Of a DNA stretch of 63,201 nucleotides, positions 27,912-45,233 are shown one piece after another. Numbering within the stretch: position 1 is the stretch's first letter; each line of letters starts with the position of its first letter. Under the pieces are notes generated by a model. The model saw nothing but the letters and a program-made list of their open reading frames with translations. It ran no database searches and had not been told where the DNA came from. The position numbers and the translations under genes were made by a program. This DNA comes from Sinomicrobium oceani (lineage in GTDB: Bacteria > Bacteroidota > Bacteroidia > Flavobacteriales > Flavobacteriaceae). The stretch is taken from NCBI RefSeq assembly GCF_900119185.1, contig NZ_FPJE01000027.1, positions 1 through 63,201 of the forward strand, in the 5' to 3' direction.

Positions 27912-29237
27912 TTAAATATATTGATTAATCAGGTTTTCGAAGTGTTCCTGTTTCCCGCTTCGCTGTTTGATCTCCTGATGTCCTTCTGCATAACGGTAAA
28001 GTTCTTCCAGGGAAGTCATACCATCGGCAAACACTTTTCCGTCTCCAGAGTCAAAAGAACTGTAACGTTCTTTACGTAAGGCGAGGTATTCGGAATCGTC
28101 GAGGATACGCTGTGCAGCGATCAGGGCACGTGCAAAAGCATCCATTCCCCCGATATGTGCGTAGAAAATATCTTCGAGATCCGTAGAATTTCTGCGGGTT
28201 TTAGCATCGAAATTGACACCTCCGCCCTGGAATCCTCCTGCCTGAAGGATAACAAGCATGGCCTGGGTAAGTTCGTAAACATCTACAGGAAACTGATCCG
28301 TATCCCATCCGTTCTGATAATCACCCCGGTTGGCATCTATACTTCCCAACAGGTTATTGTCTGCCGCCACCTGGAGTTCGTGTTCAAAAGTGTGTTGAGC
28401 GAGCGTGGCATGGTTTACTTCGATGTTCAGCTTAAAATCGTCCAAAAGGTCGTATTTGGTAAGAAAGCCGAGCACCGTAGCCGAATCAAAATCATATTGA
28501 TGTTTGGTGGGCTCCATAGGCTTGGGCTCTATAAAAAATTTACCTTTGAATCCCTGTTTACGGGCATAGTCCCTGGCCATGTGCAGGAAGGTGGCAAAGT
28601 GTTCCTGTTCGCGCTTCATATCGGTATTCAGAAGAGACATATAGCCTTCTCTACCACCCCAGAACACATAATTCTCTCCTCCGAGTTTAATGGTAATGTC
28701 CAGTGCGTTTTTCACCTGTGCCCCGGCTTGTGCCAATACGTCAAAATCGGGATTGGTAATGGCTCCGTTCATATAACGGGGATGACTGAAACAATTTGCT
28801 GTACCCCACAACAGTTTTACACCGGATGACTTTTGTTTCTCCAGAGCATAGTCCGATATAAACTGTAACCTCTTCTCGGATTCGGCCAGGTTCTTTCCTT
28901 CATCGATCAGATCGAAATCGTGAAAACAGTAGTAAGGAACCCCCAGTTTGGTAATGAATTCGAAAGCGGCATCCATCTTGTCTTTAGCCTGCTGTTTTGC
29001 ATCGCTTGCTTCGAGCCATGGAAATTTTTTGGTAGGTACTCCGAACGGATCTCCTCCCGTACCGGTAAATGTATGCCAGTAGGCCACAGCAAACCGGAAA
29101 TGTTCTTTCATGGTTTTGCCTCCTATGACTTTGTTCTCATCGTAATACTTAAATGCGAGAGGATTTTTGGAAGAAGCGCCTTCAAACGCAATTTTCCCTA
29201 TCCCTTTGAAATACTCTTTCTCTCCTAATGTTATCAT
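27912..29237 (-). CDS. xylA: Xylose isomerase
   Basis: The 441-residue class II xylose isomerase has the catalytic His106 and Asp109 in [12 protein letters not shown], the WGGREGY metal-site block and [17 protein letters not shown]. It converts D-xylose to D-xylulose in the cytoplasm with divalent metal. It sits between xylB and the symporter in one operon, 71 bases after xylB. The N terminus [16 protein letters not shown] is the usual one, so the start is secure. Confidence 0.97.
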
Positions 29238-29308: not shown

Positions 29309-30793
29309 TTAATATTGGGTAGTGGCAAGCGCCTCTTTCCAGGCAAGGTAAGCCCCCCGGTATGCACCGGCTTCCTTCAGCGGGCTATAGGTCGCTATGT
29401 ATTCGTCACCGGAAAACGCATCTCCGAACGTATCGAAATCGCCATAACTGTAACCTGCTGCACGTGCGGCTCCGACAGCACCTGTAGTGTCCACTATCCG
29501 GATCTCACGGTCTACCAATGTAGCTATGGTCCTTGAAAACAACTCCGAGCGGAACAGGTTATCTCCTCCCGCTTTTATGGTGGTCAATTGTACCCCGTCG
29601 TTTTCAAGTATCCCGATACCGTACACAAAAGAAAACGCTATACCTTCGAGTGCGGCTCTGAAAAGATGTCCCTGTCCATGGATATTGAAATTCAGATCCT
29701 TTACGGCTGCCCCGATATTGGCATTGTAAAGCATCCGTTCCGAACCGTTGCCGAAAGGAAGTATCCGCAGACCTTCCGATCCGACAGGAACGACTGCAGC
29801 CATCCGGTTCATATCGTTGTAACTTAGTGTACCACCCGAGATCTGATCTTTCATCCAGCGATACAGTATCCCCGCTCCATTGATATTCAACAGTTTTCCG
29901 ATCCGCGGATTTTCCGGTTTGTGGTTGACGTGAGCAAAATTATTGATCCGGGTGCCTTCACTGGTTCTGCTAACATCGCTAACCGCATACACCACTCCGG
30001 ATGTACCTCCTGTAGCCGCAATTTCTCCCGGATTAAAAACATTCAGGGACAGCGCATTGTTTGGCTGGTCTCCTGCCCTGTAGAGCAGCGGAATACCTGC
30101 CTTGAGCCCCAATACTTTTGAAGCCTGCCCGGTCAGTTTGCCCTGCTCCGAAAAAGTGGCCACCACCTCCGGAAGAAGCTCCGTATCGATGCCGGCTTGT
30201 TCGAGCAGCCACAACGCAGGTTTGTCGTCCTTAAAGTCCCAGGTAATACCTTCCGATAATCCCGAAGGGGTTGTAGTACACCGCCCGGTAAGCTTTAAGG
30301 CTATGTAATCGCCGGGCAGCAGAAACTTATGGATTTTTTCAAATATCCCCGGCTCATTATCTTTTACCCATTTTAATTTGGACAATGTAAAATTCCCCGG
30401 AGCATTAAGGAGCCGTTCCAGGCACTTCGTCTCTCCCGCCTTCGCACAAAGCTCATTTCCTACGGCTACCGCCCGGCTGTCGCACCATATAATGGAATCC
30501 CGAAGCACGTTAAGTTCTTTATCGACAATGACAAGACCGTGCATCTGGTAGGATACTCCCATTCCGGCTACTTGATACGGATCTACCCCGGTTTCCCGGA
30601 TAAGTTTTCCCGTTGCCTTAATGAGGTTCTCCCACCACATTTCAGGGTTTTGTTCTCCCCATCCGGGCTCTATGGAGGTAATAGGCATTTCGTTATCGGG
30701 TTGTTGTGTAATGCCGATCACTTTTCCACTCCCCGCTTCGACAAGAGAAGCTTTTACCGAAGAGCTTCCCACGTCATATCCTATCCAATACAT
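29309..30793 (-). CDS. xylB: Xylulokinase
   Basis: The 494-residue FGGY-family kinase begins with the ATPase-fold phosphate loop YDVGSSSVKASLV and has the QMHGLV block, CDSRA and the C-terminal GGDNLFRSELF segment. It phosphorylates D-xylulose for entry into the pentose phosphate pathway. It is first in the xylB-xylA-symporter operon, whose promoter and two inverted repeats lie at 30861-30919, giving a leader of about 90 bases. Confidence 0.94.
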   Translation of the reverse strand: MYWIGYDVGSSSVKASLVEAGSGKVIGITQQPDNEMPITSIEPGWGEQNPEMWWENLIKATGKLIRETGVDPYQVAGMGVSYQMHGLVIVDKELNVLRDSIIWCDSRAVAVGNELCAKAGETKCLERLLNAPGNFTLSKLKWVKDNEPGIFEKIHKFLLPGDYIALKLTGRCTTTPSGLSEGITWDFKDDKPALWLLEQAGIDTELLPEVVATFSEQGKLTGQASKVLGLKAGIPLLYRAGDQPNNALSLNVFNPGEIAATGGTSGVVYAVSDVSRTSEGTRINNFAHVNHKPENPRIGKLLNINGAGILYRWMKDQISGGTLSYNDMNRMAAVVPVGSEGLRILPFGNGSERMLYNANIGAAVKDLNFNIHGQGHLFRAALEGIAFSFVYGIGILENDGVQLTTIKAGGDNLFRSELFSRTIATLVDREIRIVDTTGAVGAARAAGYSYGDFDTFGDAFSGDEYIATYSPLKEAGAYRGAYLAWKEALATTQY

Positions 30794-30860
30794 ATATTAA
30801 GATGTCTTTACTATTTTATTGCACACTTGTTTGCTGTAATCCGGGACTTCAAAAAAACAC

Positions 30861-30883
30861 CTTATAGTTATTTTCACTATAAG
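30861..30883. promoter_or_regulatory. Inverted repeat 1 in the xylB leader (candidate operator)
   Basis: CTTATAGT and ACTATAAG are separated by seven bases (TATTTTC). It lies just downstream of the predicted transcription start of xylB. The half-site CTTATAGT recurs in the GH35 and SusC leaders, and a TTTATAGT-N7-ACTATAAA copy lies at 51701-51723. Confidence 0.7.
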
Positions 30884-30906
30884 ATATGGTAAAATTAACC
30901 ATATCT
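30882..30906. promoter_or_regulatory. Inverted repeat 2 over the xylB -7 box (candidate operator)
   Basis: AGATATGGT and ACCATATCT enclose the seven-base spacer AAAATTA. The spacer is most of the -7 box itself, so any protein bound here would block the promoter. It shares two bases with repeat 1, so the two sites abut. Confidence 0.7.
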
Positions 30907-30919
30907 TTCGATCTGACAA
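30890..30919 (-). promoter_or_regulatory. Promoter of the xylB-xylA-symporter operon
   Basis: On the minus strand TTG (30917-30919), 19 bases, then TAATTTTA (30890-30897). Both elements and the spacing fit the Bacteroidota sigma-A consensus. Confidence 0.65.
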
Positions 30920-31195: not shown

Positions 31196-32227
31196 ATGAA
31201 AGCAAACAAGGAAATCACCATCTACGATATAGCGGAAAAATTAAAATACGCTCCGTCCACGATCTCCCGGGCACTCAATGATCATCCAAGCATCAGTAAA
31301 AACACCACACTACTGATCAAGAAGGTAGCGAAGGAAATGGGGTACCGCCCCAATTCGCTTGCGGCAAGCCTGAGAAACAACAGGAGCAAGACCATAGGTA
31401 TCATGATATCCCGCATCAATCGTCCTTTTGTCTCTTCCCTGATTAGTGGTGTCGAAGAAACCGCCCGAAAATCGGGGTATAATGTTATTATCAGTCAATC
31501 CAATGACAAGTACGAAAATGAGGTCATCAATGCCCAGACCTTATACAACAGCCGGATCAGCGGACTTATTGTTTCGCTCTCCATGGAAACCCGAAAACTC
31601 GATCATCTACGTCCTTTTATAAACCAGGGAATTCCTATCGTCTTTGTAGACAGGGTTCCGGATATGGCCGATGCCCATAAAGTTATCATAGACAATTATA
31701 CCGCGGGTTACCGGGCTGCAGAACATCTTATTGAGCAGGGATGTACGCGGATTGCCCACTTTGCCGGAGCACAACACCGCAATGTTTACAGCGAACGTAA
31801 AAAGGGGTATATGGATGCTCTTAAAGATCACAACCTCAAGGCAGATAAGGACTTCATCATTACCTTTGAGAGCTTGAGTTTTGAAGAAGGCGAAAAAGCT
31901 ACTAAAAAATTACTCGATCTTCCGATACCTCCCGACGGTATTTTTGCTGCCAATGACACCACAGCCGTAAGTGCAATTATGTATGCCAAGAAAAGAGGTA
32001 TAAAGATCCCGGATGAACTCGCTGTCATCGGCTTTAATGACGACCCCATAGCCTCTATCGTAGAACCCGCTCTCTCCACCGTCATACACCCCGCCATAAA
32101 AATGGGGCAACTCTCTGCAAAGCGCATATTGCAACACGCCGTTGAAAAAGACGAAGAGGTCCTTTTCGAAACCTCCATCCTTCCGACGGAGCTTTGCATC
32201 CGTAATTCGTCCCTGAAAAACAAATAA
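31196..32227 (+). CDS. LacI/GalR-family transcriptional regulator
   Basis: The 343-residue protein has an N-terminal helix-turn-helix (TIYDIAEKLKYAPSTISRAL, residues 8-27) and hinge helix (PNSLAASLRN), then a periplasmic-binding-protein-like ligand domain (KTIGIMIS onward). It lies between the divergent xyl operon and the SDR-uxuA genes. LacI proteins bind palindromes with a central CG; three such sites overlap the -33 elements of the SDR-uxuA, GH35 and SusC promoters in this island, making it the best candidate to control them. The effector could be a pentose, a uronate or an oligosaccharide. Confidence 0.92.
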   Translation: MKANKEITIYDIAEKLKYAPSTISRALNDHPSISKNTTLLIKKVAKEMGYRPNSLAASLRNNRSKTIGIMISRINRPFVSSLISGVEETARKSGYNVIISQSNDKYENEVINAQTLYNSRISGLIVSLSMETRKLDHLRPFINQGIPIVFVDRVPDMADAHKVIIDNYTAGYRAAEHLIEQGCTRIAHFAGAQHRNVYSERKKGYMDALKDHNLKADKDFIITFESLSFEEGEKATKKLLDLPIPPDGIFAANDTTAVSAIMYAKKRGIKIPDELAVIGFNDDPIASIVEPALSTVIHPAIKMGQLSAKRILQHAVEKDEEVLFETSILPTELCIRNSSLKNK

Positions 32228-32316: not shown

Positions 32317-32355
32317 GCAACCGATTGCATCAAATATTTTGAAAAGGTACTTTTT
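32317..32355 (+). promoter_or_regulatory. Promoter of SDR-uxuA with overlapping LacI-type operator
   Basis: The operator GCAACCGATTGC is at 32317-32328. Its TTG (32325-32327) is also the -33 element, followed by 20 bases and the -7 box TACTTTTT (32348-32355). The reverse complement of the same 12-mer lies in front of the GH35 gene. A palindromic ACTATAGT lies just upstream at 32296-32303. Confidence 0.65.
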
Positions 32356-32468
32356 TTCATTTATTTTACATTCAGAACACCCCCTTCAGACTTATATATG
32401 GTCTTTACGGGAGTTTTTCCGACCTTATTTCCGTTAGGAGAAACAGCTGAAAACTAAAAACATACATT

Positions 32469-33203
32469 ATGACTAAAACAGCAATTGTAACCGGGGGAAA
32501 CTCCGGCCTTGGCTATGCTACGGCCAAAAAATTATGTGACAACGGTATCAAAACATATATCATAGGCAGAACCCCCGAAAAAACCGAAGTTGCCTGTAAA
32601 GAGATCGGGGAACTGGCGTTTCCCGTTATCTTTGACCTCAACAACCTGGAGGGCATTCCGGGCATGATCAAGGATATCGCTAAAAACGGCCCTATAGATA
32701 TCCTCGTCAACAATGCGGGGATCAATATGAAAAAGGAATTTATCGATGTTACCGATGCGGATTTTGAGTCTATTATCCACACTAACGTATTCAGCGTATT
32801 TTCCGTAAGCCGTGAAGTGGTAAAAATAATGAAGGAAAACGGAGACGGAAGTATCGTCAATATCAGTTCCATGACTTCCCAATACGGCATTCCGAAAGTA
32901 ATTGCATATTCTGCCAGTAAATCGGCTATCGAGGGGATGACAAGGGCTATGGCGGTAGAACTCGCCCAGTATGGCATCCGCGTTAACTGCGTAGCTCCGG
33001 GCTTTATCAAAACCAAAATGTCTTCAAAAGCACTCGACAATGATCCGGAACGTAAAAACAAAGTACTCTCCAGAACACCGATGGGAAAACTGGGTGACCC
33101 TTCGGATATCGGTGATGCGGTATTTTATTACGCCACTTCCGAATCCAAGTTTACAACGGGCACCATACTTCCGGTAGACGGAGGAAACAGCATAGGTTTT
33201 TAA
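32469..33203 (+). CDS. Short-chain dehydrogenase, probable D-mannonate/fructuronate oxidoreductase
   Basis: The 244-residue classical SDR has TGGNSGLGYATAK (cofactor loop), NNAGIN and the catalytic set Ser (NISSMTSQ), Tyr and Lys (YSASKSA). The C-terminal LPVDGGNSIGF is typical. It lies 105 bases before uxuA behind one promoter, so an NAD(P)-dependent step of hexuronate breakdown (fructuronate to mannonate, the UxuB role) is the most likely job. KduD- or gluconate-dehydrogenase-type activity is the alternative, since SDR substrate cannot be read directly. Confidence 0.78.
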   Translation: MTKTAIVTGGNSGLGYATAKKLCDNGIKTYIIGRTPEKTEVACKEIGELAFPVIFDLNNLEGIPGMIKDIAKNGPIDILVNNAGINMKKEFIDVTDADFESIIHTNVFSVFSVSREVVKIMKENGDGSIVNISSMTSQYGIPKVIAYSASKSAIEGMTRAMAVELAQYGIRVNCVAPGFIKTKMSSKALDNDPERKNKVLSRTPMGKLGDPSDIGDAVFYYATSESKFTTGTILPVDGGNSIGF

Positions 33204-33308
33204 ACAAAAACGATAACTAACCGGAAACTTTTCAAAAGGATCAATTGCTGTGCATGAAATAACGGCAGAAAAAAGAAAGGTTCCGGCAGATACCAAATAT
33301 ATTACAAC

Positions 33309-34487
33309 ATGATACGAATGCAGCAAACCATGCGATGGTACGGACCGCATGATGGCGTAAGCCTGAAGGAAATAAGACAGTCGGGGGCAAGCGGTGTGGT
33401 CACAGCCCTGCATGAAATTCCGGTAGGAGAGGTATGGACCACGGCGGAAATCGGTAAAAGACTGGCTGAGATACGGGAAGCAGGACTCGACTGGACCGTT
33501 ATCGAAAGTCTTCCCGTCCATGAAGACATCAAACGCCGCAACGGCAACTACGAACTGTATATAAAAAATTATAAGGAAAGCCTGAAAAATATCGCCTCCT
33601 GCGGACTCCGGGTTATCACTTATAACTTTATGCCTGTTCTGGACTGGGTAAGAACAAACACCATGTTTGTCAATGAAGACGGCACCAAAACACTACGCTT
33701 TGAAAAAGACGCATTTGTGTTCTTTGACCTGTCTCTTTTGAAAAGACCCGGGGCAGAAAATGATTATACCGGGGAGGAAATGGCAAGTGCCCTCGCTTAT
33801 GGCGACAAACTCTCGGAAGAAGATAAACAATTGTTATTCAATACGGTACTGCTGGGTCTTCCCGGAAGTAAGGAAAATTTCACTCCGGAGAAAGTCCTGA
33901 GCCTCTTAAAAGAGTATGAGGGTATAGACGACACCAGGCTACGGGAAAACCTGCAACTCTTTTTGAGTGAAGTAGCTCCCGTTGCGGAAGAGTTGGGCCT
34001 GAAACTGGCCATTCATCCGGATGATCCGCCTTTTTCCGTATTGGGATTACCCCGTATCGTGTGCTCTGAACAGGACATCGATAGGATATTCGAAGCGGTT
34101 CCGGTGAATGCCAACGGACTTTGTTTCTGCACGGGGTCTCTCGGGGCCAATCCGGATAACAACCTTGTCCGTATCCTGGAAAAACATGGCGACCGTATTC
34201 ACTTCCTTCACCTGAGGAGTGTGGAGAAAGAACGCAAAGGTGTGTTCAAGGAAGCAGAACACCTTGGCGGTGATGCTCCTATGGCTACCATAGTCCACAA
34301 GATACTGCAGTTGATGAACAGCAGAAATACGGCGCTCCCTATGAGGCCGGACCACGGTGCTCTTTTCACGCTGGAAGAGGGAAGAGAACACTATTCCGGT
34401 TATTCCCTGATCGGACGACTCAAAGGACTTGCTGAGATCCGGGGGCTGGAACAAGGCATCGTGTATGCCCTGGAACAGCACGTATAA
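33309..34487 (+). CDS. uxuA: Mannonate dehydratase
   Basis: The 392-residue UxuA-family enzyme has the N-terminal RWYGPHDGVSLKEIRQSGA signature and AIHPDDPP with the metal-binding His, plus RPDHG near the C terminus. It dehydrates D-mannonate to 2-keto-3-deoxygluconate. With the SDR it handles glucuronate that the GH115 enzyme across the terminator would release. Uronate isomerase (UxaC), KDG kinase and KDPG aldolase are not in the window. Confidence 0.95.
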   Translation: MIRMQQTMRWYGPHDGVSLKEIRQSGASGVVTALHEIPVGEVWTTAEIGKRLAEIREAGLDWTVIESLPVHEDIKRRNGNYELYIKNYKESLKNIASCGLRVITYNFMPVLDWVRTNTMFVNEDGTKTLRFEKDAFVFFDLSLLKRPGAENDYTGEEMASALAYGDKLSEEDKQLLFNTVLLGLPGSKENFTPEKVLSLLKEYEGIDDTRLRENLQLFLSEVAPVAEELGLKLAIHPDDPPFSVLGLPRIVCSEQDIDRIFEAVPVNANGLCFCTGSLGANPDNNLVRILEKHGDRIHFLHLRSVEKERKGVFKEAEHLGGDAPMATIVHKILQLMNSRNTALPMRPDHGALFTLEEGREHYSGYSLIGRLKGLAEIRGLEQGIVYALEQHV

Positions 34488-34506
34488 TTTTTATAACATC
34501 AAATAC

Positions 34507-34548
34507 AAAGCCCCGGTACCATGTTCAAAAAACGGTACCGGGGCTTTT
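34507..34548. terminator. Bidirectional terminator between uxuA and GH43
   Basis: AAAGCCCCGGTACC (34507-34520) pairs perfectly with GGTACCGGGGCTTT (34534-34547), with A and T tracts outside. It serves two convergent operons. Confidence 0.88.
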
Positions 34549-34574
34549 TAATACCCGAAAAATCCTGATCCCGG

Positions 34575-35696
34575 TTATTCTGTCACCGTACTGATCGTTT
34601 CGATAGTTCCGTCTTCGCGATGTTTCAGGGGACTCACTTTGATATTCCTCAGGTGTGTTTTACCGGATAATTCGGTATCGTGGTAAAAGATGTACCACTG
34701 CCCGTTAAACTCCGCAATAGAGTGGTGATTGGTCCATCCCTCAACCGGGTTCAGAATATTCCCCTGGTAAGTAAAAGGTCCGTAAGGGCTATCTCCTGTG
34801 GCATACGCTATGTAATGTGTATCTCCCGTAGAATATGAAAAATAATACTTCCCTTTATATTTATGTACCCAGGCCGCTTCAAAAAAGCGCCGGTCATGAT
34901 CTCCCGCGAGGATAGGGTTTCCCTCCTTATCCAGTATACGGATCTCTTTGAGCTTTTCATCGAACTGCAACATATCATCGCTCATACGAGCCACCCTTGG
35001 CCCGATAGCAGGTTCGTCATCCGCAGGTTCGTTGTCATACGGGGTTTTGGTATGGTGATCGTATTCACCTGTCCTCCAGTTTTGCAATTGCCCTCCCCAT
35101 ATTCCGCCGAGATACATATAATACGCTCCGTCGTCATCCTTAAACACTGCCGGGTCGATACTCAGGCTACCTTTGATAGGCAATTTCTCTGCTTTAAAAG
35201 GTCCTTCCGGCCTTGAGGCAACAGCCACCCCGATATGGAACACTCCATCTTTATCCTTGGCAGGGAAATACAAGTAATACGAGTCACCTTTTTTCGCCGC
35301 ATCCGGCGCCCATAACTGCCTGGCCGCCCACGGCACGTCATCTACACTTAAAGCTACTCCATGGTCCGTTACTTTTCCACCGACGGAATCCATGGAGAAT
35401 ACGTGATAATCCCTCATATCGAAATGCCCTCCGAAATCATCTTCTTTCACCCCGGCGTCAACATCATGGGAAGGATAGACATATAACCTGTTCTCAAAAA
35501 CATGAGCCGAAGGGTCTGCTGTGTATATGTCGGTAACCAGAGGTTTATTCCGGAATTCAGACTCCTTTTTCTGTTGCGTTTCTTCTACCTGCTTATCTTC
35601 CGTTTTCTGCTTTTTTTGCGGTGCCTCTCCGCACGACACGACGAGCATCCCGGCAAATAAGACTGATGTCGCCTTTATAACATGCTTTTTTTTCAT
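34575..35696 (-). CDS. Glycoside hydrolase family 43 lipoprotein (beta-xylosidase/arabinofuranosidase type)
   Basis: The 373-residue protein has a lipoprotein signal ending VVSC (Cys22) and a charged linker, then a five-bladed propeller. The three GH43 carboxylates are visible: Asp61 (ADPSAHVF), Asp181 (SIDPAVF) and Glu273 (FFEAAWVHK). It cleaves xylosyl or arabinosyl residues from xylan oligosaccharides at the cell surface or in the periplasm. The subfamily and exact sugar cannot be set by eye. It is the last gene of the GH35-GH115-GH43 set, 30 bases after GH115. Confidence 0.88.
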   Translation of the reverse strand: MKKKHVIKATSVLFAGMLVVSCGEAPQKKQKTEDKQVEETQQKKESEFRNKPLVTDIYTADPSAHVFENRLYVYPSHDVDAGVKEDDFGGHFDMRDYHVFSMDSVGGKVTDHGVALSVDDVPWAARQLWAPDAAKKGDSYYLYFPAKDKDGVFHIGVAVASRPEGPFKAEKLPIKGSLSIDPAVFKDDDGAYYMYLGGIWGGQLQNWRTGEYDHHTKTPYDNEPADDEPAIGPRVARMSDDMLQFDEKLKEIRILDKEGNPILAGDHDRRFFEAAWVHKYKGKYYFSYSTGDTHYIAYATGDSPYGPFTYQGNILNPVEGWTNHHSIAEFNGQWYIFYHDTELSGKTHLRNIKVSPLKHREDGTIETISTVTE

Positions 35697-35726
35697 ACTG
35701 GTTTTATTTATGAATATGGTTTTATA

Positions 35727-38612
35727 CTATTTTACATGTATGCCCTCCTGCTCTTCGATGACAAACCTGCTTTCTTCCGGACCGAGATAACTGGGTTTTA
35801 GTCCACCGGTATCAATGATAATCTTCTGCAATACGATTCCCGTATCGAGCATACGAACACGCAGTATATGCTCCCCGGGCGTTTTTATCTGGTGTTCGCT
35901 GACCAGTGTATTGATATTATCCGCAACCCATTTTCCCCATTGCCTGCCATCATTTTCGGAATGCATAGAAACAATCTCGGGAGGGTCATCATCCAGAGAA
36001 ACCGCCAGACGTTTTCCGGCTTCGGAATTCTGATAATTGAGTGTAGGAGAAACCAGAGTATGAATTTTAATGGTACCCGGCGTATTTACGTAAATCCTGT
36101 ATTCAAGCCCATGCCCTTCGTTGTTCAGTACTTCTCTATCGAGAATCACCGGGTAAAGTGTCACGGCAGAACCGGTACGCCCCAGATCGGGTATAATACC
36201 GTATTGAATCCCGGTCAGTTCTTTTTTGGCTGTGAAATGCGCAGCCTCCATAGCAATATACCCGTTTTGTTCTATGAATCCCTTTACGTTTTGCCCGAAA
36301 TAGGTACGAACCGGTACAGCGACCTCAACCTTTTCCTTTCCGGAACGGATGACAACGGAAGTTCCGGTGGCATCAGCAGGGATCTTATCCCAGTCTACGG
36401 TCAGCCATATTCTTTCTTCACCTTCAGTTTCTCCTTCAGTGGAGGAAAGCGTTAACCATGCGGCATTGCTTGTAATGCTGTATTTCAGTTTCTTTTGTCC
36501 GCGATTGAATATATCCAGATAGCGCCTTCCTGTCTGGTATGGTGTTATCTCCGGCGATACCGCTTTTTTCCGGGCTTCCGGCCACCAGGAAGAGGAACCT
36601 TCGACAGCGACACCGAGTCCGGATTTCCGGGACAGTTTTATTTCTTCGACCTTCGGCATGGACTGCTTTTCGGGTTGCTGCCAATAGGTATATCCTATAT
36701 GGGTCTGGCTCATCATATGGTTCCACTTACCATCTCCCATGGTATGGTACGCCTCGGTAAGCTCCTCATCTTTGCGATATAATACTTTCGCGCGCTTCGC
36801 CATCGCATTGGTCGTCGCGCGGCCCTGTTTTGCATACCACCTGTTTTTTGCGACCGTTACATATAGTTCGTTGAGATTGGCACAGGCTTTCACCGGAAAT
36901 GCGACCAACTGATAAAACGCATCTTTATATGATTCGGGCAGTGCTTCATGAATACGGTCTGCCTTTTCGGCCAGCCTGTTGTAATCTTCCACAACCCTTT
37001 CGGCCTCCCGGTAATCAACCAGACTGTATGTATCTGCGTCCAGTAGTTCGGGTTTTCTCCTGCTGTTATATTTGGTATACAGAGAGAGCAATTCCGATAT
37101 TTCCGCAGCGTATTCGGGGCCAAACTGCCTTTCGCTCCAGGATTCCACATATTCTCCAATGCGTTCGGCCGGCCATTTATCGGGCGACCAGGCATAGTCG
37201 AGAAAAAATGACACAGGAAGTTCCATCGGTTTGATGTCCCCTACGTTGACCACCCATATCCTGTCGACACCATGCCGATAGGTCAGGTTCATCTGTTCCC
37301 ATATTCTCGGGATCGGATTGGTGTTGAGCCATTTGTAATTCCGGGGGCCACCTACATAATCAAAATGATAGTACATTCCGTATCCGCCCTTGCGCGGGGC
37401 TGCATAAGGATCGGGCAGTTTCCTGACATTCCCCCAGTTATCATCGCATAAAAACAGGGTGACATCATCCGGCACACGCATACCTTTGTCATAATACTCC
37501 TGAACTTCCTTGTATAAGGTCCATACCTGCAGGGTTTCCTCCGCAGGTTTTCCGGTAACATCACTGATGATCTTTCGCTGATCGTCTATGATTTTCTCCA
37601 GGAGTGCTATATTATTTTCTTCGCTCATGGGCTCATCGCCATCTCCACGCATCCCGAGGGTTACAATGCTTTCGTTAGCACCCATCCTTGCGATACCTTC
37701 TTTCCAGAAGTCCTGTAGCGCAGCCTTGTTGGTCTCGTAATTCCAGGCTCCTTTCCCGTATCGGCTCCATTCTGCATGAGCACGCATGAGAGGCTCATGA
37801 TGAGAAGTACTCACCACGATACCATATTCATCGGCCAGGGTCGCATTCAGGGGATCGTCATCATAAAACGCTCTTCCCCACATGGCAGGCCACAGGAAAT
37901 TTCCCTTGAGCCTTAGGATAAGCTCAAAGACTTTTTCATAAAACTTATGGTTAAACCCTCCGAATTTCTCATGGGCCCAACCGGATAGCGCGGGAGCTTC
38001 ATCATTAATAAATATACCCCGATACTTTACTGCAGGAGTTCCATGGCTGTACCGTTCCTTCCCTAAATAAATATGCTGTTTTTTACGAACAGGTACATCG
38101 GCCCACCAATACCAGGGCGAAACACCGATCTGCTCCGAGAGGTCGTACAACCCGAAGATCGTACCTCTCTTATCGCTCCCTGTGATAACCAGGGCCTGGT
38201 CGACTCCCTCGAAAGGGTGGTCTACAACCCGAATTAAAAAGGTTTCCCATTGTCCCGCAATATCATTGACCCGGAGTTTACCTTCCGCTACGAGTCGATC
38301 GATCCAGGCATTATTTCCTAAAGTTCCCGCAAGAACAACACGTGATGGCAATTTGTCTGTTATCTCGGAGATCTCAGGTGATTTTCCGGTAACACGAAAT
38401 ACATCTTCTCCGAAGTTTTTCAAGGCCCTGACCACTCCAGGATCTTCATCGGCACCGATATAAACAGGCAGGGCTTTCTCTCCGACCAGGGGAAATTTAT
38501 CTCCGTTGTCTTCTGCAGACACCAGAGACTGCCCATGTAATATCCCTGTAAAAAAACACAGGACTATTACGGGAAGCATATATACGTATATTCTAAAGTT
38601 GATCTCAGACAT
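35727..38612 (-). CDS. Glycoside hydrolase family 115 alpha-glucuronidase
   Basis: The 961-residue exported protein has a signal peptide of about 27 residues. The family GH115 core is recognisable from YRGIFINDEAPALSGWAHEKFGG, GNFLWPAMWGRAFYDDD, SHHEPLMRAHAEW and LFLCDDNWGN. A C-terminal beta-sandwich extension (about 660-960) may bind carbohydrate. GH115 removes glucuronic acid or 4-O-methylglucuronic acid from xylan, internally as well as at ends. Its presence is the main reason to read this island as a glucuronoxylan locus. It starts 42 bases after the GH35 gene. Confidence 0.92.
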   Translation of the reverse strand: MSEINFRIYVYMLPVIVLCFFTGILHGQSLVSAEDNGDKFPLVGEKALPVYIGADEDPGVVRALKNFGEDVFRVTGKSPEISEITDKLPSRVVLAGTLGNNAWIDRLVAEGKLRVNDIAGQWETFLIRVVDHPFEGVDQALVITGSDKRGTIFGLYDLSEQIGVSPWYWWADVPVRKKQHIYLGKERYSHGTPAVKYRGIFINDEAPALSGWAHEKFGGFNHKFYEKVFELILRLKGNFLWPAMWGRAFYDDDPLNATLADEYGIVVSTSHHEPLMRAHAEWSRYGKGAWNYETNKAALQDFWKEGIARMGANESIVTLGMRGDGDEPMSEENNIALLEKIIDDQRKIISDVTGKPAEETLQVWTLYKEVQEYYDKGMRVPDDVTLFLCDDNWGNVRKLPDPYAAPRKGGYGMYYHFDYVGGPRNYKWLNTNPIPRIWEQMNLTYRHGVDRIWVVNVGDIKPMELPVSFFLDYAWSPDKWPAERIGEYVESWSERQFGPEYAAEISELLSLYTKYNSRRKPELLDADTYSLVDYREAERVVEDYNRLAEKADRIHEALPESYKDAFYQLVAFPVKACANLNELYVTVAKNRWYAKQGRATTNAMAKRAKVLYRKDEELTEAYHTMGDGKWNHMMSQTHIGYTYWQQPEKQSMPKVEEIKLSRKSGLGVAVEGSSSWWPEARKKAVSPEITPYQTGRRYLDIFNRGQKKLKYSITSNAAWLTLSSTEGETEGEERIWLTVDWDKIPADATGTSVVIRSGKEKVEVAVPVRTYFGQNVKGFIEQNGYIAMEAAHFTAKKELTGIQYGIIPDLGRTGSAVTLYPVILDREVLNNEGHGLEYRIYVNTPGTIKIHTLVSPTLNYQNSEAGKRLAVSLDDDPPEIVSMHSENDGRQWGKWVADNINTLVSEHQIKTPGEHILRVRMLDTGIVLQKIIIDTGGLKPSYLGPEESRFVIEEQEGIHVK

Positions 38613-38653
38613 GGTGTTAGGGTTTGGTTATTTTGAGATACGTTATAATCTGA

Positions 38654-40276
38654 TTATTTATAGCTGTACAGTTCCACTTGCTGTATATCGTAACGGCCGG
38701 CAGGTATACGCAAATGTCTGCCCTGGTGGCTTTGATCTCCATTCATTCTTCTGCCTGGCTTCCAACTTCCATTTTCGTACTTTCCTTCATCTATTCTGGA
38801 TATTCCGGCCTGAGGGGCATTTTTACTCCGGGAGAGAAAAGTAACAACAACTCCTGTTCCGGCGATAATGAATTTACCAGGACCTTTACGGATAATCAAA
38901 GCCCCGCTCTCGGGCCATTCTTCTGCTTTGGCTTCTGGTGACCAACCCAGAATATGATCGTGTTTTGCCACCAGGGTATAATCGCCAAAATGCAGGGTAT
39001 CGACAGCCTCACTTTTGCTCAACCAGACTCCTCTCATGTCACGGCTTCCCACATTTTGTTGAATTTCCGGAGACAACTGGCGGAGCAGCTCATAAACTTT
39101 CCCTATGTTCTCTTCTTCGGGATGCTCGGTTGATTCTATGGAAAAGGGCGAAAATCCCATAGCATGATAATGCCCTATGGCATAAAAAGCTTTGGCCCCT
39201 ACCGATGGTTCAAATCGTATTTCGGGTATAAAAAGGGGATTGTCTTCACGGGTATAAAGATCATTCCAGTACCGAAACCTGGGATTGTAAAAATCCGGGG
39301 AAAGAAAATCGATTTGCGGTGCCGCTGCTTTCCATATATCTATAAGATGAGGTAAAGGCCCACCACTGGGATAATCTCCTGGTCTTACTCCCGGGCGGTT
39401 CAGGGCTGCATTGACAAACATCGGAAGCGGGTATGCTTCCTTCCCGGCTTTAGCTACTTCATCTGCATATCTGGCGAAATACCACGCCATAAAAATTTCG
39501 TCTGTATCCAGTCCCTTTCCGAAAATCTCTTCCCAGCTACCTCTCCATGACGAACCGTTAGATTCCCAACGTGTCCTGAGGAAAGGAGCCAATTCATCCC
39601 GGTTGTTTTTCATATAGGTAATGAGCTCGTCCGGAACTGCCTGTTTAAAAAACCGGTTTGCTTCGGCACTGTGATCCCGGGCATCGGGCAACATTCCTAT
39701 TTCATTTTCTACCTGAACCATAATCACCGTTTGTTCCCCTCCATCCGTTTTCCGCAAGTGGTTCATCAATGCCACAAATGCTTTTTTATCGGCCTCCAGG
39801 TTCTCTCGGGCAAAAGGACTGAGTATTTCCTGTCCTTCTCCCTCCTTACTGGCAGCCCTCGGAAATCGCCTTGCATTTTTCTTGACCCAGACCGGAGCAT
39901 AGCAAGACATGCTGTTCTTCCAGCTACCAAACCAAAGTAAGACCAGCTTGACATCATGTTTCCTTGCGTCACGGATCAGGTTATCTATGAGTTCAAAATT
40001 GAACTTGCCTTCTTGAGGTTCTGTTAATTCCCAATACACCGGGGTTAAAAGTGTATTCAGATTCATTTTTTTGATTTTGGGCCAGATGTTTTCCATATAG
40101 CACATATCGGAGGCACTGGAGTTTCCCAATTCGCCCCCCAAAATCAGAAAAGGCTGGTCTTTGACTACCAGTATTTTTCGTTCTCCCCGTGCGGTCAATT
40201 CCGGAAATTCCTGGGCAAAAACAGGAATATTTACAAAGAACAGCAGCGCGATAAAATATGGATATAATGTATTCAT
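38654..40276 (-). CDS. GH35-like glycoside hydrolase with DUF5597 C-terminal domain
   Basis: The 540-residue exported protein (signal ends near NIPVFAQ) has a TIM-barrel with the GH35-type acid/base Glu192 in QVENEIG and a candidate nucleophile Glu352 in FIPEIRF. The N terminus FLILGGELGNSSAS and the C-terminal half fit the DUF5597-containing group often called beta-galactosidase. In a xylan locus a galactosidase on decorated xylan, or another exo-activity such as xylosidase, is plausible. It is the first gene behind its own promoter at 40320-40357. Confidence 0.8.
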   Translation of the reverse strand: MNTLYPYFIALLFFVNIPVFAQEFPELTARGERKILVVKDQPFLILGGELGNSSASDMCYMENIWPKIKKMNLNTLLTPVYWELTEPQEGKFNFELIDNLIRDARKHDVKLVLLWFGSWKNSMSCYAPVWVKKNARRFPRAASKEGEGQEILSPFARENLEADKKAFVALMNHLRKTDGGEQTVIMVQVENEIGMLPDARDHSAEANRFFKQAVPDELITYMKNNRDELAPFLRTRWESNGSSWRGSWEEIFGKGLDTDEIFMAWYFARYADEVAKAGKEAYPLPMFVNAALNRPGVRPGDYPSGGPLPHLIDIWKAAAPQIDFLSPDFYNPRFRYWNDLYTREDNPLFIPEIRFEPSVGAKAFYAIGHYHAMGFSPFSIESTEHPEEENIGKVYELLRQLSPEIQQNVGSRDMRGVWLSKSEAVDTLHFGDYTLVAKHDHILGWSPEAKAEEWPESGALIIRKGPGKFIIAGTGVVVTFLSRSKNAPQAGISRIDEGKYENGSWKPGRRMNGDQSHQGRHLRIPAGRYDIQQVELYSYK

Positions 40277-40293
40277 AGCTTCTTGGCTTTAAT

Positions 40294-40357
40294 CTTATAG
40301 TCAAAAAGAATATATGATGTAAATATACACAAATATTCCATGCTTGCAATCGGTTGC
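40294..40357 (-). promoter_or_regulatory. Promoter, LacI-type operator and conserved leader of the GH35-GH115-GH43 operon
   Basis: On the minus strand TTG (40347-40349), 19 bases, TATATTTA (40320-40327). The 12-mer operator at 40346-40357 overlaps the TTG. Downstream, 40294-40342 is nearly identical to 45170-45218 in front of SusC (43 of 49 bases by hand alignment) and includes a CTTATAGT half-site at 40294-40301. Confidence 0.68.
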
Positions 40358-40480
40358 GTTTTCTTTTCTGTTAAAAAACCTATCGAACCTATAATTTTTA
40401 AGGGTATATTTTTTCATCTTCAAAATTCCCTGTAGTTTTTAAGACAATACCGCAACATCCGGAAGTAAGATTCAAAAAAA

Positions 40481-40516
40481 ATACCCCGAAAACAGCCTGC
40501 GCTAATTTCGGGGTAT
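40481..40516 (-). terminator. Terminator of the susC-susD operon
   Basis: ATACCCCGAAA (40481-40491) pairs perfectly with TTTCGGGGTAT (40506-40516), and the minus strand continues into seven T. It separates susD from the GH35 operon. Confidence 0.88.
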
Positions 40517-40541
40517 TGCGTACCGTATGAGATCTGCGGGA

Positions 40542-42053
40542 TTAGTACCCGTTGTTCTGATCGGACTGGGAAATGTTATTATTAGCCGCTATTTCTGCCA
40601 GCGGAATAGGATATACTTCACTCTTTCCGACCACAAAATTGGGAATGGTATTTCCCATACCCCATCGTACCAGGTCAGGAAAACGCACCTGCTCCCCGGC
40701 AAGTTCTACTTTCCGTTCGTGTACGATAGCTGCAAATACTTCTTCCGGGGTGGAAACCGGGTATATACTATCCATAGCCGGAGTACCGTAGTTGGGCATG
40801 TTCACCCGGTCACGCACCTCATTGAGGTAGTCGATCGCCACATCCGAATTGCCCAGTGCATTTTCGGCCTCGGCCATCATCAGCAAGACATCGGCATAGC
40901 GTATCACTCGGAAATTGATACTGGAGTTGATATTCTCATTAGCCCTCTTGTAATAATTCTGATACTTTCTCCAGGCGGCTCTTCGCTCCAGGGGAATATT
41001 CACTTCTCCTTCTCCGTTATTAAAAGAATCTCCGTTGAAGTAAAAACTTGCGGTATAGCGCGGATCTCCATCTTCGAACTCATCCAGAAGATCATCGGAA
41101 GGATACACGTTAAACCAGTCGTTCCATCCGTATTCCTGTCCGCGGAGCGTTGCTTCATTCTGCCCTGCTCCGGTGACATCGGAATCCCAAAGGTTCCCTG
41201 CCCCAAGGCTTTCATCATATTCGATCTCAAAGATCGATTCGTCGTTGTGCTCGGTCTCTTCGAGGAAGTTATCTCCGAAATTTGCTGCCAGCGTAAAGTC
41301 GCCGATGATTTCATTAAACGCATCCCGTGCCGGACCGTAATCTTCCCTGTACAGATGTACTTTTCCCAGGAGGGCATAAGCCGCTTCATAAGTTGCCCTT
41401 CCCCATTCGTGTCTTTCACTGAAATTGCTGTAAAGATTTTCTGCGGCAAATTCCAGATCCGGAATGATGACTTCTTCATAAATCTGTTCGGAAGACGTTC
41501 TCGGGAAACCTTCCTGGTCCTCTACAATAACATCGGTTATCATGGGGACATCACCGAATCTCGTTACCAAAAGAAAGTAATACAGTCCACGCAGGAACCT
41601 GGCTTCCCCTATAAACTTGTTTTTGGCTTCGTCGGACATCCCAAAGATATCCCGTATTTTCTGCTCATTGGAGATGATATAATTTGCCTTGTTTATCCCA
41701 CGGAAACAGCTTTCCCAATAGGCCCGGATACCCCCGTGACTCGCATCAAAACTAAAGGCGAGATACTGTTGCTTATCGGCCTCCAATTGTGGATTTCCGC
41801 TATTTTCATGAGAGAGATTATCCATCATAAAAAACATATGCCTTCCCCATAGTCCCTGGGTTTGCAAATTGGCATAAATAGCATTTACTGCCGATATCAC
41901 CTGGGTTTCACTTTCCAGAAAGGTCTGCGAATTGGCCCCGTTGGGATCGGTGAGTTCAAGATCGTCCGTATTACACCCTCCCATAGCCACAGCGATGAGC
42001 AAGGCACAGAAAAGGACTGTCGTAGTGTTTTTATATTTTCTTATAATTTCCAT
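40542..42053 (-). CDS. SusD/RagB-family surface glycan-binding lipoprotein
   Basis: The 503-residue lipoprotein has a signal ending MGGC (Cys27). It carries the SusD N-terminal region (SQTFLESETQVISAVNAIYA) and TPR-like helical body, and the C-terminal block RYADVLLMMAEAEN with ERKVELAGE and RFPDLVRWG. It sits on the outer membrane and caps the SusC channel to capture oligosaccharides, here presumably glucuronoxylan pieces. It starts 19 bases after SusC and ends at a terminator. Confidence 0.95.
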   Translation of the reverse strand: MEIIRKYKNTTTVLFCALLIAVAMGGCNTDDLELTDPNGANSQTFLESETQVISAVNAIYANLQTQGLWGRHMFFMMDNLSHENSGNPQLEADKQQYLAFSFDASHGGIRAYWESCFRGINKANYIISNEQKIRDIFGMSDEAKNKFIGEARFLRGLYYFLLVTRFGDVPMITDVIVEDQEGFPRTSSEQIYEEVIIPDLEFAAENLYSNFSERHEWGRATYEAAYALLGKVHLYREDYGPARDAFNEIIGDFTLAANFGDNFLEETEHNDESIFEIEYDESLGAGNLWDSDVTGAGQNEATLRGQEYGWNDWFNVYPSDDLLDEFEDGDPRYTASFYFNGDSFNNGEGEVNIPLERRAAWRKYQNYYKRANENINSSINFRVIRYADVLLMMAEAENALGNSDVAIDYLNEVRDRVNMPNYGTPAMDSIYPVSTPEEVFAAIVHERKVELAGEQVRFPDLVRWGMGNTIPNFVVGKSEVYPIPLAEIAANNNISQSDQNNGY

Positions 42054-42071
42054 GATATTGTTCTTTTGGCA

Positions 42072-45000
42072 TTAAAAAGATACTTGCAATCCAAGGAACA
42101 GAGACTTGGGTTGCGGATAGTTTCCACGGTCTATCCCTACTTCAAAATTTGAAGTTGCATCATTTACCGTATAGGCTCCTACTTCCGGATCGTAACCGGA
42201 ATAACCGGCCAATGTTATCAGGTTTTGTCCGCTCAGATAAACCCTGAACCTGGAGAACGTACCGTTAAACACTTCTTCGGGAAGGGTATAACCAATCGTA
42301 ATATTTCTTAGCCGGGCATAAGATCCGTCTTCGACAAACCTATCGGAAGCCCGGGTATTGAGTGTTGCTCCCTGTGCTCTCGGAATACTGTTCGATGTTC
42401 CCTCTCCGGTCCACCGGTCGAGTACGCGGGTACTGGCATTAAATAAACGCTGCATCCCTTCGGTGTCGAAAAGCAGGGTGTTAAATACATCATTCCCGGC
42501 GGTTCCGCTTACAAATACGTTAAAGTCGAAATTCTTGTATGCCGCATTGAGATTAAGACCAAAAGTGAGATCCGGGAACGGATTCCCGATTTTCACACGG
42601 TCTTCATCGTTAATAATCCCGTCTCCGTTTTGATCGACCATACGTATATCTCCGGGTTGCGCCCCGGCCTGTGTAGCATGGGCATCCACTTCTGCCTGAT
42701 TCTGAAAGATCCCATCGGTCTGAAAACCAAAAAAATGGAACAGGGATTCTCCGGGTGCTACACGGGTAAGGTTGTCATTTACTCCTGCCACAAAGCTGGC
42801 TCCCGTAATTTCTCCCACGGTTCCCAGGGAAAGTGCTTTGTTTGTGTTTGTCCCGAGGTTGAGATTGGCAGACCATGTAAAATCTCCTTCGTAATCATTA
42901 TACCCCAGGTTGAATTCAAAACCTTTGGTCTCTACAGAACCGACGTTTTCGGTAACAATCCCGGAGTGGGTTCCGAATGAAGGCGGTAAAGGCCGGTCCA
43001 TGAGGAGGTCATCACTTTTATTCTTGTAGTACTCTGCAGACAATGTCACTTTATTATCCCACAGCCCCAGGTCGATACCGATATTTGTCATAGTGGTTTC
43101 CTCCCATTTTACATCGGGGTTGCCTACCCCGGAAGGAGAAGCCCCTATACCGGCCGATCCGTTTATCGGATAAATAAAATTATCTATAATGGTGTAATTG
43201 TAGACATAATCGGCAATATTGTCATTTCCGGTGGTCCCCCAACTCCCCCGGAGTTTAAGGTTGTTAATAGCCGGGACGTTAAAGAAACTTTCTTCACTGA
43301 TCAGCCATCCCCCCGCAAGCGAGTAGAAATTACCCCATCGGTTATTCGGACCGAAACGGGAAGAACCATCGCGACGGATGGAAGCTGCAAGGATATATTT
43401 TTCGTCGTAATTGTAGTTAACACGTCCGAGATAACCGATCCGGGTATATTCCAGAGAATTAGATCTCAGGTTGGATTCGGTATTAGTCAGTTCATTCACA
43501 TCATTACTGATATAATTTCTGCTGTATGCATTGGTATTGGTAGATCTCATCTTTTGCTTTTCCGCCAGTACCAACACTTCCAGATTATGTTTATCTGCAA
43601 AGGTTGCCGTATAATTCAGACTGTTGGTATAAACCAGGGACTTAAACGTTCCTGAATTTTTTTCTATGGAGGCAAAGATCTGGGTATGTGTGGCTCCCAT
43701 ACTGTCATCGTTAAAGGAAGGCACAAATGTATTGTTATTAAAAGTCCGGTAATCCAATCCGGCTTGCGTTTTAAAGACCAGCCCATCGAGTATTTCGTAC
43801 TGGGCATACAAACCTCCGATAATATTAACGGAACGGTTTTCCCGTTGTGGTAACTCGAGTACTCTTACCGGGTTCTCCGCATCCTGCCCGTCTACAGAAG
43901 AATTGGGTCCTTGAAATCCTCCCGGATTATTCGGGTTGTAAATGGGCAGATAAGGAGCCATTCGTATGGCATGCCGGATCACAGAACGTCCGCCGCTATC
44001 ACTTTCGGGATTCTGATTATTGAAAACGATTTGGGCTGTTTCTCCTATTTTCAGCTTACCGAAAGTAAAATTGCTGTTCGCCCGAAAATTATGTCTTTTA
44101 AAGCCGGTATTCCTCAGAATCCCGTCCTGATCGATAAGTCCTGCCGAAATTCTGAAATCGCTGTTTTCATCTCCGCCGGAAATTGCAAAATTGTGTTTCT
44201 GCATTAATCCCGACTGGAAGATAGCATCCTGCCAATCGGTATTCCTGTTGAGCATATCGGCATATTGCGGATCGGTAAGACGCTGGGGAAGCCCGAATGC
44301 TTCTGCAAACTGAGTGTACTGATTGGTATTCATCAGGCCCAGTCTCTTGGTTACAAACTGGGTCCCCACGTAACTGTCTATGGAGAGCGATAATTTGCCC
44401 TGTCTTCCTTTTTTCGTCGTAACCATAACCACCCCGTTCGATCCTTTCGACCCGTAAATGGCCGTGGTCGATGCATCCTTAAGCACTTCGATAGACGCTA
44501 TATCCTGCGGATCGATGTCTGCAAGCCTACCTCCGATCACTCCATCGATGACATACAACGGGTCGTTGTTGTTCATGGTTCCCAATCCCCGTATCCGGAC
44601 AACAGGTGGCTGTCCCGGAGAACCGCTGTTAATCACAGACACCCCCGAAGCCCTTCCCTGCAGGGCCTGCTCCGATGTGGTAACAGGTATACTGGCCATG
44701 GCCTCCGAATCTATAGACTCAATAGCTCCGGTAACCACTCTTCTGGACTGTGTACCGTAACCCACGACGACCACTTCATCGAGTTGTGCCAGGTCTTCTT
44801 CGAGTGTAGCGTTGACCGTAGCACGGCCATCGACAGGCACCCTGACTTTCTTATATCCGATATAACTAATTTCCAGGACAGCATCCGAGGGAACATCGCC
44901 AAGCGAATACTTCCCGTCAAAATCTGTAGTAGTTCCGTTTGAGGTTCCCTGAACTATGATACTTGCTCCCGGCAAAGGACCATTAGCATCAGAAACCATT

Positions 45001-45110
45001 CCTGACACCGTGATATGCTGTCCGTATGAAAAACTCCCGAAAAGGAGTAATACAAGACCGAGCATCACCTGTCGCACTTTACGCTGATTTTCTGAATTTT
45101 GTAAGTACAT
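42072..45110 (-). CDS. SusC/RagA-family TonB-dependent outer membrane transporter
   Basis: The 1012-residue protein has a signal peptide to about residue 30, a carboxypeptidase-regulatory-like domain (about 33-105), the DEVVVVGYGTQ segment (111-121), a plug domain and a beta-barrel ending in the terminal phenylalanine of SLFLGLQVSF. There is no N-terminal secretin or anti-sigma-interacting extension, so it is not an ECF-sigma signalling type. It imports glycans with SusD using TonB energy. No SusE/F-like binding protein is present. Confidence 0.95.
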   Translation of the reverse strand: MYLQNSENQRKVRQVMLGLVLLLFGSFSYGQHITVSGMVSDANGPLPGASIIVQGTSNGTTTDFDGKYSLGDVPSDAVLEISYIGYKKVRVPVDGRATVNATLEEDLAQLDEVVVVGYGTQSRRVVTGAIESIDSEAMASIPVTTSEQALQGRASGVSVINSGSPGQPPVVRIRGLGTMNNNDPLYVIDGVIGGRLADIDPQDIASIEVLKDASTTAIYGSKGSNGVVMVTTKKGRQGKLSLSIDSYVGTQFVTKRLGLMNTNQYTQFAEAFGLPQRLTDPQYADMLNRNTDWQDAIFQSGLMQKHNFAISGGDENSDFRISAGLIDQDGILRNTGFKRHNFRANSNFTFGKLKIGETAQIVFNNQNPESDSGGRSVIRHAIRMAPYLPIYNPNNPGGFQGPNSSVDGQDAENPVRVLELPQRENRSVNIIGGLYAQYEILDGLVFKTQAGLDYRTFNNNTFVPSFNDDSMGATHTQIFASIEKNSGTFKSLVYTNSLNYTATFADKHNLEVLVLAEKQKMRSTNTNAYSRNYISNDVNELTNTESNLRSNSLEYTRIGYLGRVNYNYDEKYILAASIRRDGSSRFGPNNRWGNFYSLAGGWLISEESFFNVPAINNLKLRGSWGTTGNDNIADYVYNYTIIDNFIYPINGSAGIGASPSGVGNPDVKWEETTMTNIGIDLGLWDNKVTLSAEYYKNKSDDLLMDRPLPPSFGTHSGIVTENVGSVETKGFEFNLGYNDYEGDFTWSANLNLGTNTNKALSLGTVGEITGASFVAGVNDNLTRVAPGESLFHFFGFQTDGIFQNQAEVDAHATQAGAQPGDIRMVDQNGDGIINDEDRVKIGNPFPDLTFGLNLNAAYKNFDFNVFVSGTAGNDVFNTLLFDTEGMQRLFNASTRVLDRWTGEGTSNSIPRAQGATLNTRASDRFVEDGSYARLRNITIGYTLPEEVFNGTFSRFRVYLSGQNLITLAGYSGYDPEVGAYTVNDATSNFEVGIDRGNYPQPKSLFLGLQVSF

Positions 45111-45169
45111 AATAAATGATTGAGTTTAGAAAAAGCATATATCATGAAGACTCCTTTAACACACTTTTG

Positions 45170-45233
45170 CTTATAGTCAACATGAATATATGATGTAAAT
45201 ATACATAAATAATTCATCCACACAATCGATTTC
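45170..45233 (-). promoter_or_regulatory. Promoter, operator-like site and conserved leader of susC-susD
   Basis: On the minus strand TTG (45223-45225), 19 bases, TATATTTA (45196-45203). A CG-centred site with half GATTGT lies over the TTG at 45222-45233, in the same register as at 40346 and 32317 but less symmetric. The leader block 45170-45218 matches that of the GH35 operon and carries CTTATAGT at 45170-45177. Confidence 0.65.

Follow-up and report, generated by a model that had tools for sequence, protein, structure and literature searches.

Paired operator motifs suggest possible joint control of glucuronoxylan genes by a LacI-family and an NrtR-family repressor in Sinomicrobium oceani

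Which signals open the genes with which Sinomicrobium oceani uses glucuronoxylan? Polymer-specific induction in Bacteroidota is mostly ascribed to hybrid two-component or extracytoplasmic function (ECF) sensors. The DNA analyzed here, the window (63,201 nucleotides; contig NZ_FPJE01000027.1, positions 1 to 63,201), carries a gene for a LacI-family regulator on its + strand (31196..32227) near genes for a SusCD pair, debranching glycoside hydrolases (GHs) and uronate use, which the initial annotation had read as a local regulon of that protein. We propose that this protein is a UxuR-like repressor and that it and an NrtR-type XylR may gate the glucuronoxylan genes jointly. The LacI-type operators form a real, conserved set, largely as proposed, with a corrected promoter register, a wider regulon and a second operator that had gone unnoticed.

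The regulator gene is confirmed as an open reading frame (ORF) of 343 aa, and its product scores above cut-off for PF00356, PF00532 and PF13377, that is, an N-terminal LacI helix-turn-helix (HTH) joined to a periplasmic-binding-protein-like (Peripla_BP) sugar domain. Both exact 12-mers reported for the island are present: GCAACCGATTGC lies before the short-chain dehydrogenase/reductase (SDR) gene and uxuA (32317..32328, + strand), and its exact reverse complement lies over the -33 TTG of the GH35 promoter (40346..40357, - strand), at the head of a GH35-GH115-GH43 run. When the four island intergenic regions (1,264 bp) were dinucleotide-shuffled, at least one exact GCAANCGNTTGC arose in 16 of 20,000 shuffles and two in 0 of 20,000. 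Across the 5.02-Mb genome the exact 12-mer has four copies against 0.46 expected from the base composition of the window: the two in the window, one on contig C48 before a GH67 alpha-glucuronidase gene, with its far end 86 bp upstream of the ORF, and one inside a susD-like ORF on C22. The 12-mer is thus not common in unrelated promoters, since the three intergenic copies all precede glucuronate or xylan genes (gene calls here are mechanical ORFs, and both intergenic status and distances to starts are approximate). The weaker copy reported before susC, ACAATCGATTTC at 45222..45233 (GAAATCGATTGT on the susC strand, -), is there as well. It has two mismatches to GCAANCGNTTGC, and an equally good match arose in 259 of 5,000 cases when its intergenic region was shuffled (p about 0.05), so that this copy is weak alone and needs other support; GGAATCGATTGT stands at the same place in a relative, G003.

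Comparison of related genomes with the same locus, which the initial annotation had suggested, bears the sites out. An exact site precedes SDR-uxuA in all five Sinomicrobium genomes, including G005, where tblastn places the true SDR start at L052:19435 and the site is still upstream. Exact sites also precede GH35 and xylB in G003, and a different susC and xylB in G005, while in G002 a different susC is preceded by an exact site, and a GH10 gene and xylB by sites with one mismatch. The xylB site kept in these three relatives has been lost from the window: the aligned stretch (30941-30960) is degraded and no longer matches, and a search that allowed two mismatches found no LacI site between xylB and the regulator gene (30794-31195). 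A search of 15 genomes for GH67 found it in four; in the three of these that are Sinomicrobium genomes the gene is preceded by the site (exact in two, one mismatch in G002). The description of the regulon as local consequently has to be given up, with GH67 on another contig and xylB carrying the site in three relatives. Of the three functions that it was said to link, debranching (GH35-GH115-GH43, GH67) and uronate use (SDR-uxuA) hold, and the SusCD link depends in this genome on the degenerate site, exact sites standing before the different susCD pair in two relatives. That pair, in G005 (L052 5918-10938) and G002 (L054 4173-9195), has a SusC about 31-34% identical to that of the window pair (40542-45110), and it still has the same two operators in front. 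We read the swap, on sequence grounds, as gene replacement under a kept regulatory scheme.

The sites extend to other genera. Twelve loci with a regulator of 65-69% identity hold 11 exact sites within 242,586 bp of sequence, where shuffles gave 0.2 on average; nine lie before GH67 and two before the GH3 gene of a GH3-hexuronate operon, and 11 of the 12 loci have such a site. Gillisia has UxaC, PfkB kinase and tripartite ATP-independent periplasmic (TRAP) transporter genes among those that come after GH3; the layout in Salinimicrobium, where GH3 was the gene scanned, looks like that of Gillisia, and at the twelfth locus (Fulvivirga) a site with one mismatch precedes the regulator. Eight of the 12 loci come from closely related genomes of Allomuricauda/Flagellimonas type, two of which are unplaced metagenome-assembled genomes, and so are not independent; the count leaves out L109, L115 and L126, which are G001, G005 and G003, as well as L122, L123, L125 and L127-L131 (at most 41% identity or a short fragment), and it includes GH67 sites at L111 and L116 that were flagged inside ORFs owing to over-long ORFs. 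In a scan of 24 of the 40 genomes from the regulator search, GCAAYCGRTTGC has 19 copies in the five genomes with an orthologue (reversed control, 2) versus 7 in the 19 without one (control, 2); 14 of these 19 genomes have no copy, and 4 of the 7 copies fall within 200 bp of a 41-46% homologue. Predicted targets (SDR, GH35, GH67, xylB or susC2 promoters) account for 13 of the 19 copies. As far as sequence can tell, the LacI-type sites track the adjacent regulator across species. Copies of GCAATCGATTGC occur before GH43-susC or susC genes in three relatives (L175 4142, L174 4033, L173 4055), and one loose-pattern place in the S. oceani genome, ACAATCGATTGC (L066 1501), precedes a GH43 gene on C20; each is possibly a further target.

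Which protein reads these sites? We consider it very likely that it is the LacI-family protein of the window. Its orthologues are found at 85, 81, 80 and 72% in 4 of 5 same-genus relatives, and its recognition helix, PSTISR, is common to all five Sinomicrobium orthologues, with GCAA as the half-site. The GCAAYCGRTTGC sites are even palindromes with a central CG near promoters, which PMC4052901 gives as the rule for LacI-family operators. Two paralogues offer an alternative. That on C30 has the helix SSTVSR and ACAATCGATTGT sites in its own cluster, that on C51 has AATVSR with GTAATCGATTAC upstream; these are close variants of the window sites, and the susC copy shares the ACAATCGATT core, so that this degenerate site could be shared with a paralogue. 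That a paralogue acts instead of the neighboring protein at some sites, above all at susC, nevertheless strikes us as quite improbable, because the helices differ and the exact sites follow the orthologue across genera; helices and site variants together support assigning the 12-mers to the window protein. We call it UxuR-like from its assigned role and its family, setting it beside BT1434 by description. Its predicted regulon takes in glucuronate catabolism at SDR-uxuA and in the GH3-UxaC-TRAP run of Gillisia, but not at the uxaC gene of its own genome, to which we return below. As to the paralogues themselves, the C30 palindromes, one ACAATCGTTTGT and two ACAATCGATTGT (L064 9356, 9524 and 12073), belong to a cluster that also has susCD and a heparinase II/III-like gene, and the C51 protein (L063 10776), beside uxaC, a 2-keto-3-deoxygluconate (KDG)-kinase-like gene and TRAP genes, is a candidate general hexuronate regulator.

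The position of the operators relative to the promoters needed correction. Bacteroidota promoters have a -33/-7 consensus, and we assigned the boxes by eye against it. The initial annotation had placed all three island sites in one register over a -33 TTG. This stands for GH35 and susC, where TTG is followed at 18-19 nt by TATATTTA, the -7 candidate of GH35 (40320..40327, -) and of susC (45196..45203, -), in each case 18 nt after the operator. The GH35, susC, susC2 and GH10 promoters all have TATATTTA 17-18 nt after the site, which indicates that the right half-site doubles as the -33 TTG. For SDR-uxuA the register does not stand. The -7 that would fit it, TACTTTTT (32348-32355), is kept in 1 of 4 relatives (G003), and none of its type was found in G005, G002 or G001. 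A better conserved -33 candidate, TTTG (32338..32341, +; aligned by eye, kept in four of five genomes and TTG in the fifth), lies downstream of the operator, 20 nt from the -7 candidate TATTTTAC (32362..32369, +), which is present in all five. The SDR-uxuA and GH67 promoters thus differ from the GH35/susC geometry, and the xylB or symporter promoters of Allomuricauda-type genomes have TATATTTG 6 nt behind the site. In each of these arrangements the operator touches or adjoins the promoter, consistent with repression. Allomuricauda-type GH67 leaders (L110-L117) also show a second, imperfect GCAATTGATTGA, conserved, some 40 bases behind the GH67 operator.

A second operator, which the initial annotation overlooked, occupies the same hydrolase and SusCD promoters. 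The motif TATAGT-N7-ACTATA, which we term XylR-like, lies before xylB (in tandem), GH35, susC, GH67 and the gene of a Nudix regulator of the NrtR/AraR family. In the xylB leader it is exact (TATAGTGAAAATAACTATA, 30863..30881, -) and is found at one mismatch or fewer in all five genomes; its full form there is CTTATAGT-N7-ACTATAAG, and a tandem repeat read from the same leader, TATGGT-N7-ACCATA (30885..30903, -), comes next with the cores 3 bp apart. This tandem block is kept across the genus, though less well in G001. The copies in the GH35 leader (40294..40316, -; core TATATTCTTTTTGACTATA) and the susC leader (45170..45192, -; core TATATTCATGTTGACTATA) have one mismatch each, and the two leaders share TTGACTATAAG, which has four copies genome-wide. 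Of the 12 intergenic places of the motif at up to one mismatch, eight stand in front of genes suited to the use of xylose or xylan. Seven of these precede xylB, GH35, susC, GH67, GH43-CBM6, a hybrid two-component system (HTCS) gene next to one of GH43 xylosidase type, and a transaldolase gene; the eighth is in the region from which the NrtR-family gene and an alpha-xylosidase-like GH31 gene diverge. The remaining four lie before a GFO/IDH/MocA gene, before a 471-aa ORF without a Pfam match, between pyrG and nhaA, and at one place without annotation.

The likely owner of this motif, as we judge with slightly less assurance than for the LacI sites, is the NrtR-family protein encoded on C16, our XylR candidate. 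It has a Nudix domain and an NrtR/AraR winged helix (PF00293, PF21906 and PF19368 above cut-off), matches BtAraR structures (E = 1e-52), is 87-95% conserved in the genus, and carries a degenerate Nudix box, GWIKKDESIDDAAYRLLRELTG, an impaired catalytic signature with no match to the full one. With two mismatches allowed, the motif lies upstream of its gene in four of the five genomes. In S. oceani the gene adjoins the alpha-xylosidase-like GH31 gene, not xylose genes; in Salinimicrobium a 72% homologue lies beside a sugar transporter-xylB-xylA-like run, with the motif between. Two other candidates were set aside. The arabinose-side NrtR protein (C16:189059), beside araA/araD/araB-type genes, lacks the motif at its locus, both in 3.7 kb when two mismatches are allowed and in 19 kb when one is, and the NUDIX gene of the window (24743-25477) is closest to CoA pyrophosphatase, with no winged helix reported.

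How might two repressors divide the genes between them? A table of 20 promoters and 13 hand-picked controls shows three patterns. SDR-uxuA promoters have the LacI site in 5 of 5 cases and the second motif in 0 of 5; xylB promoters have the second motif in 5 of 5 and the LacI site in 3 of 5; among the hydrolase and SusCD promoters, 10 of 10 have both when two mismatches are allowed (8 of 10 for each motif when one is allowed). Among the controls, 1 of 13 reaches two mismatches for the LacI site and 2 of 13 for the second motif, the latter being one pyrG-nhaA palindrome counted from both sides. We propose that the UxuR-like repressor would cover or abut the SDR-uxuA and GH35-GH115-GH43 promoters and that of GH67 on the other contig, and that the Nudix regulator encoded elsewhere in the genome would bind TATAGT-N7-ACTATA. 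Each metabolic operon would then carry the site for its own sugar, the LacI site only at SDR-uxuA and always the XylR site at xylB. The hydrolase and SusCD promoters carry both, a pattern which suggests that full expression would need a uronate-derived signal as well as xylose, the two products of glucuronoxylan. Binding, effectors, repression and this joint logic are what we infer; the sites themselves, their conservation, their positions and their co-occurrence with the regulators can be read from the DNA.

It is conceivable that the LacI protein represses all of these promoters by itself, on one xylan-derived ligand (e.g. aldouronic acid or xylobiose), and that the second motif came along as part of a leader or promoter when promoters were duplicated. 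The similarity of the GH35 and susC leaders, which extends over about 40 bp, is what promoter duplication would leave, and in other genera, Salinimicrobium excepted, the LacI site covers xylB, GH67 and uxuA without a second motif at up to one mismatch. However, the second motif is also found in leaders that are otherwise unlike one another in sequence and placement (those of xylB, NrtR/GH31, transaldolase and GH67, the last with the motif upstream in two genomes and downstream in G002), and we regard control by the LacI protein by itself as unlikely, though worth keeping in view. We prefer the two-repressor account, which we consider likely as a whole, and its parts carry different weight. That both repressors jointly gate the hydrolase and SusCD promoters is close to an even call, leaning slightly to the doubtful side. 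More tentative still is true coincidence detection, in which a uronate-sensing LacI repressor and a xylose-sensing NrtR repressor would act on the same polysaccharide utilization locus (PUL) and debranching promoters, with no surface hybrid two-component sensor at the locus, while the monosaccharide pathways would each be gated by their own repressor.

Several observations weigh against this account. The looser palindrome is hardly enriched genome-wide (6 exact places versus 2 for the reversed pattern; 94 versus 68 at up to one mismatch, with contexts computed for 18 of the 94, 16 one-mismatch and 2 exact), and at up to two mismatches the window has 18 matches against 23.65 expected. One exact place, GCAAACGGTTGC, is intergenic before an unrelated Glucosamine_iso/PIG-L gene on C20; the remaining one is inside an ORF on C33. 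Together with the weak susC copy, the low enrichment is what chance palindromes, or a promoter-derived motif without a regulator, would give. That explanation seems to us extremely improbable in view of the absence of two exact sites in any island shuffle and of the conservation across genera; for the exact sites, we reject chance on the evidence of the shuffles and the cross-genome co-occurrence. The remaining 6 of the 19 GCAAYCGRTTGC copies lie off the predicted targets, three before susC or GH43-susC genes of other clusters, two in susD-like ORFs and one between gltB- and gltD-like genes, and the GH67 gene of G016 has no site upstream. Also contrary to a simple uronate regulon is uxaC, the first step of glucuronate use: the scan did not support a LacI site before it, none being found in the uxaC region of the S. 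oceani genome, and it lies beside another LacI paralogue. At SDR-uxuA and GH67 the operators are upstream of the likely -33, where activation would also be possible. With one mismatch allowed, the second motif has 22 places against 72 for the reversed control, i.e. it is the rarer, and 10 of the 22 are inside ORFs. Its exact copy between pyrG and nhaA in the window (51703-51721) is unrelated to xylose genes by content and may reflect chance or another role. The promoter table, finally, is partly circular, as the second motif was first noticed in these promoters, and its promoters are related, not independent.

The genes of the island are consistent in content with glucuronoxylan use. On the + strand, the SDR oxidoreductase (32469..33203; PF00106/PF13561) has a probable fructuronate reductase role, judged from its place before uxuA, the mannonate dehydratase gene (33309..34487; TIGR00695 above cut-off). 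The hydrolase run on the - strand consists of GH35-type (38654..40276; NF051902 above cut-off), GH115, of the xylan alpha-glucuronidase family (35727..38612; PF15979, PF17829), and GH43 (34575..35696; PF04616) genes, and at higher coordinates lie the susD-like gene (40542..42053, -; PF07980) and the gene for the susC-like TonB-dependent receptor (42072..45110, -; PF07715, PF13715). On the other side of the regulator gene, all on the - strand, lie an xylB-like FGGY kinase gene (29309..30793; TIGR01312 the best match, below cut-off), which unlike that of three relatives has no LacI site, xylA for xylose isomerase (27912..29237; TIGR02630 above cut-off), and a sodium/solute symporter gene (26222..27844; PF00474, TIGR00813), possibly for a xylose carrier by its context.

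If correct, the proposal describes a pair of cytoplasmic repressors that respond to two released monomers at a single set of promoters, which would be a simple alternative means of recognizing a composite polysaccharide. The exact operator coordinates and the predicted regulon, GH67 included, can be tested directly. The parts are ordinary; the combination of LacI and NrtR proteins is a testable variant, and joint control of xylan genes by the two is not described in the titles or abstract openings of the literature searched.

Each half of the scheme has known counterparts. In Bacteroides thetaiotaomicron, the LacI-family UxuR (BT1434), UxaR and KdgR are predicted alongside an NrtR-family XylR (PMC3878776) and resemble the window protein in family, in assignment to glucuronate/galacturonate use in Bacteroidota and in having CG-centered even palindromes, the rule for the family (PMC4052901); the Sinomicrobium sites, by comparison, are found at debranching hydrolases too and, among relatives, at SusCD, GH10 and xylB promoters. 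UxuR2 of Algoriphagus marincola HL-49, as summarized in PMC5507952, is a LacI-family regulator of uronate genes with a TRAP transporter, much as the window-type regulator of Gillisia lies beside UxaC and TRAP genes, whereas the uxaC-TRAP operon in the genome studied here adjoins a different LacI paralogue. AraR, an arabinose-released NrtR-family regulator with tandem sites (PMC4666351), and the XylR of Bacteroides (PMC3878776) share with the C16 protein the Nudix domain and winged helix, the degenerate Nudix box, tandem sites before a pentose operon and the pentose assignment; the proposed XylR sites differ in that they also accompany LacI operators at the promoters of glucuronoxylan hydrolase and SusCD genes. 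Xylan systems with a dedicated regulator likewise place TonB-dependent uptake and xylan enzymes under common control, there by one regulator and here, as we propose, by two cytoplasmic repressors.

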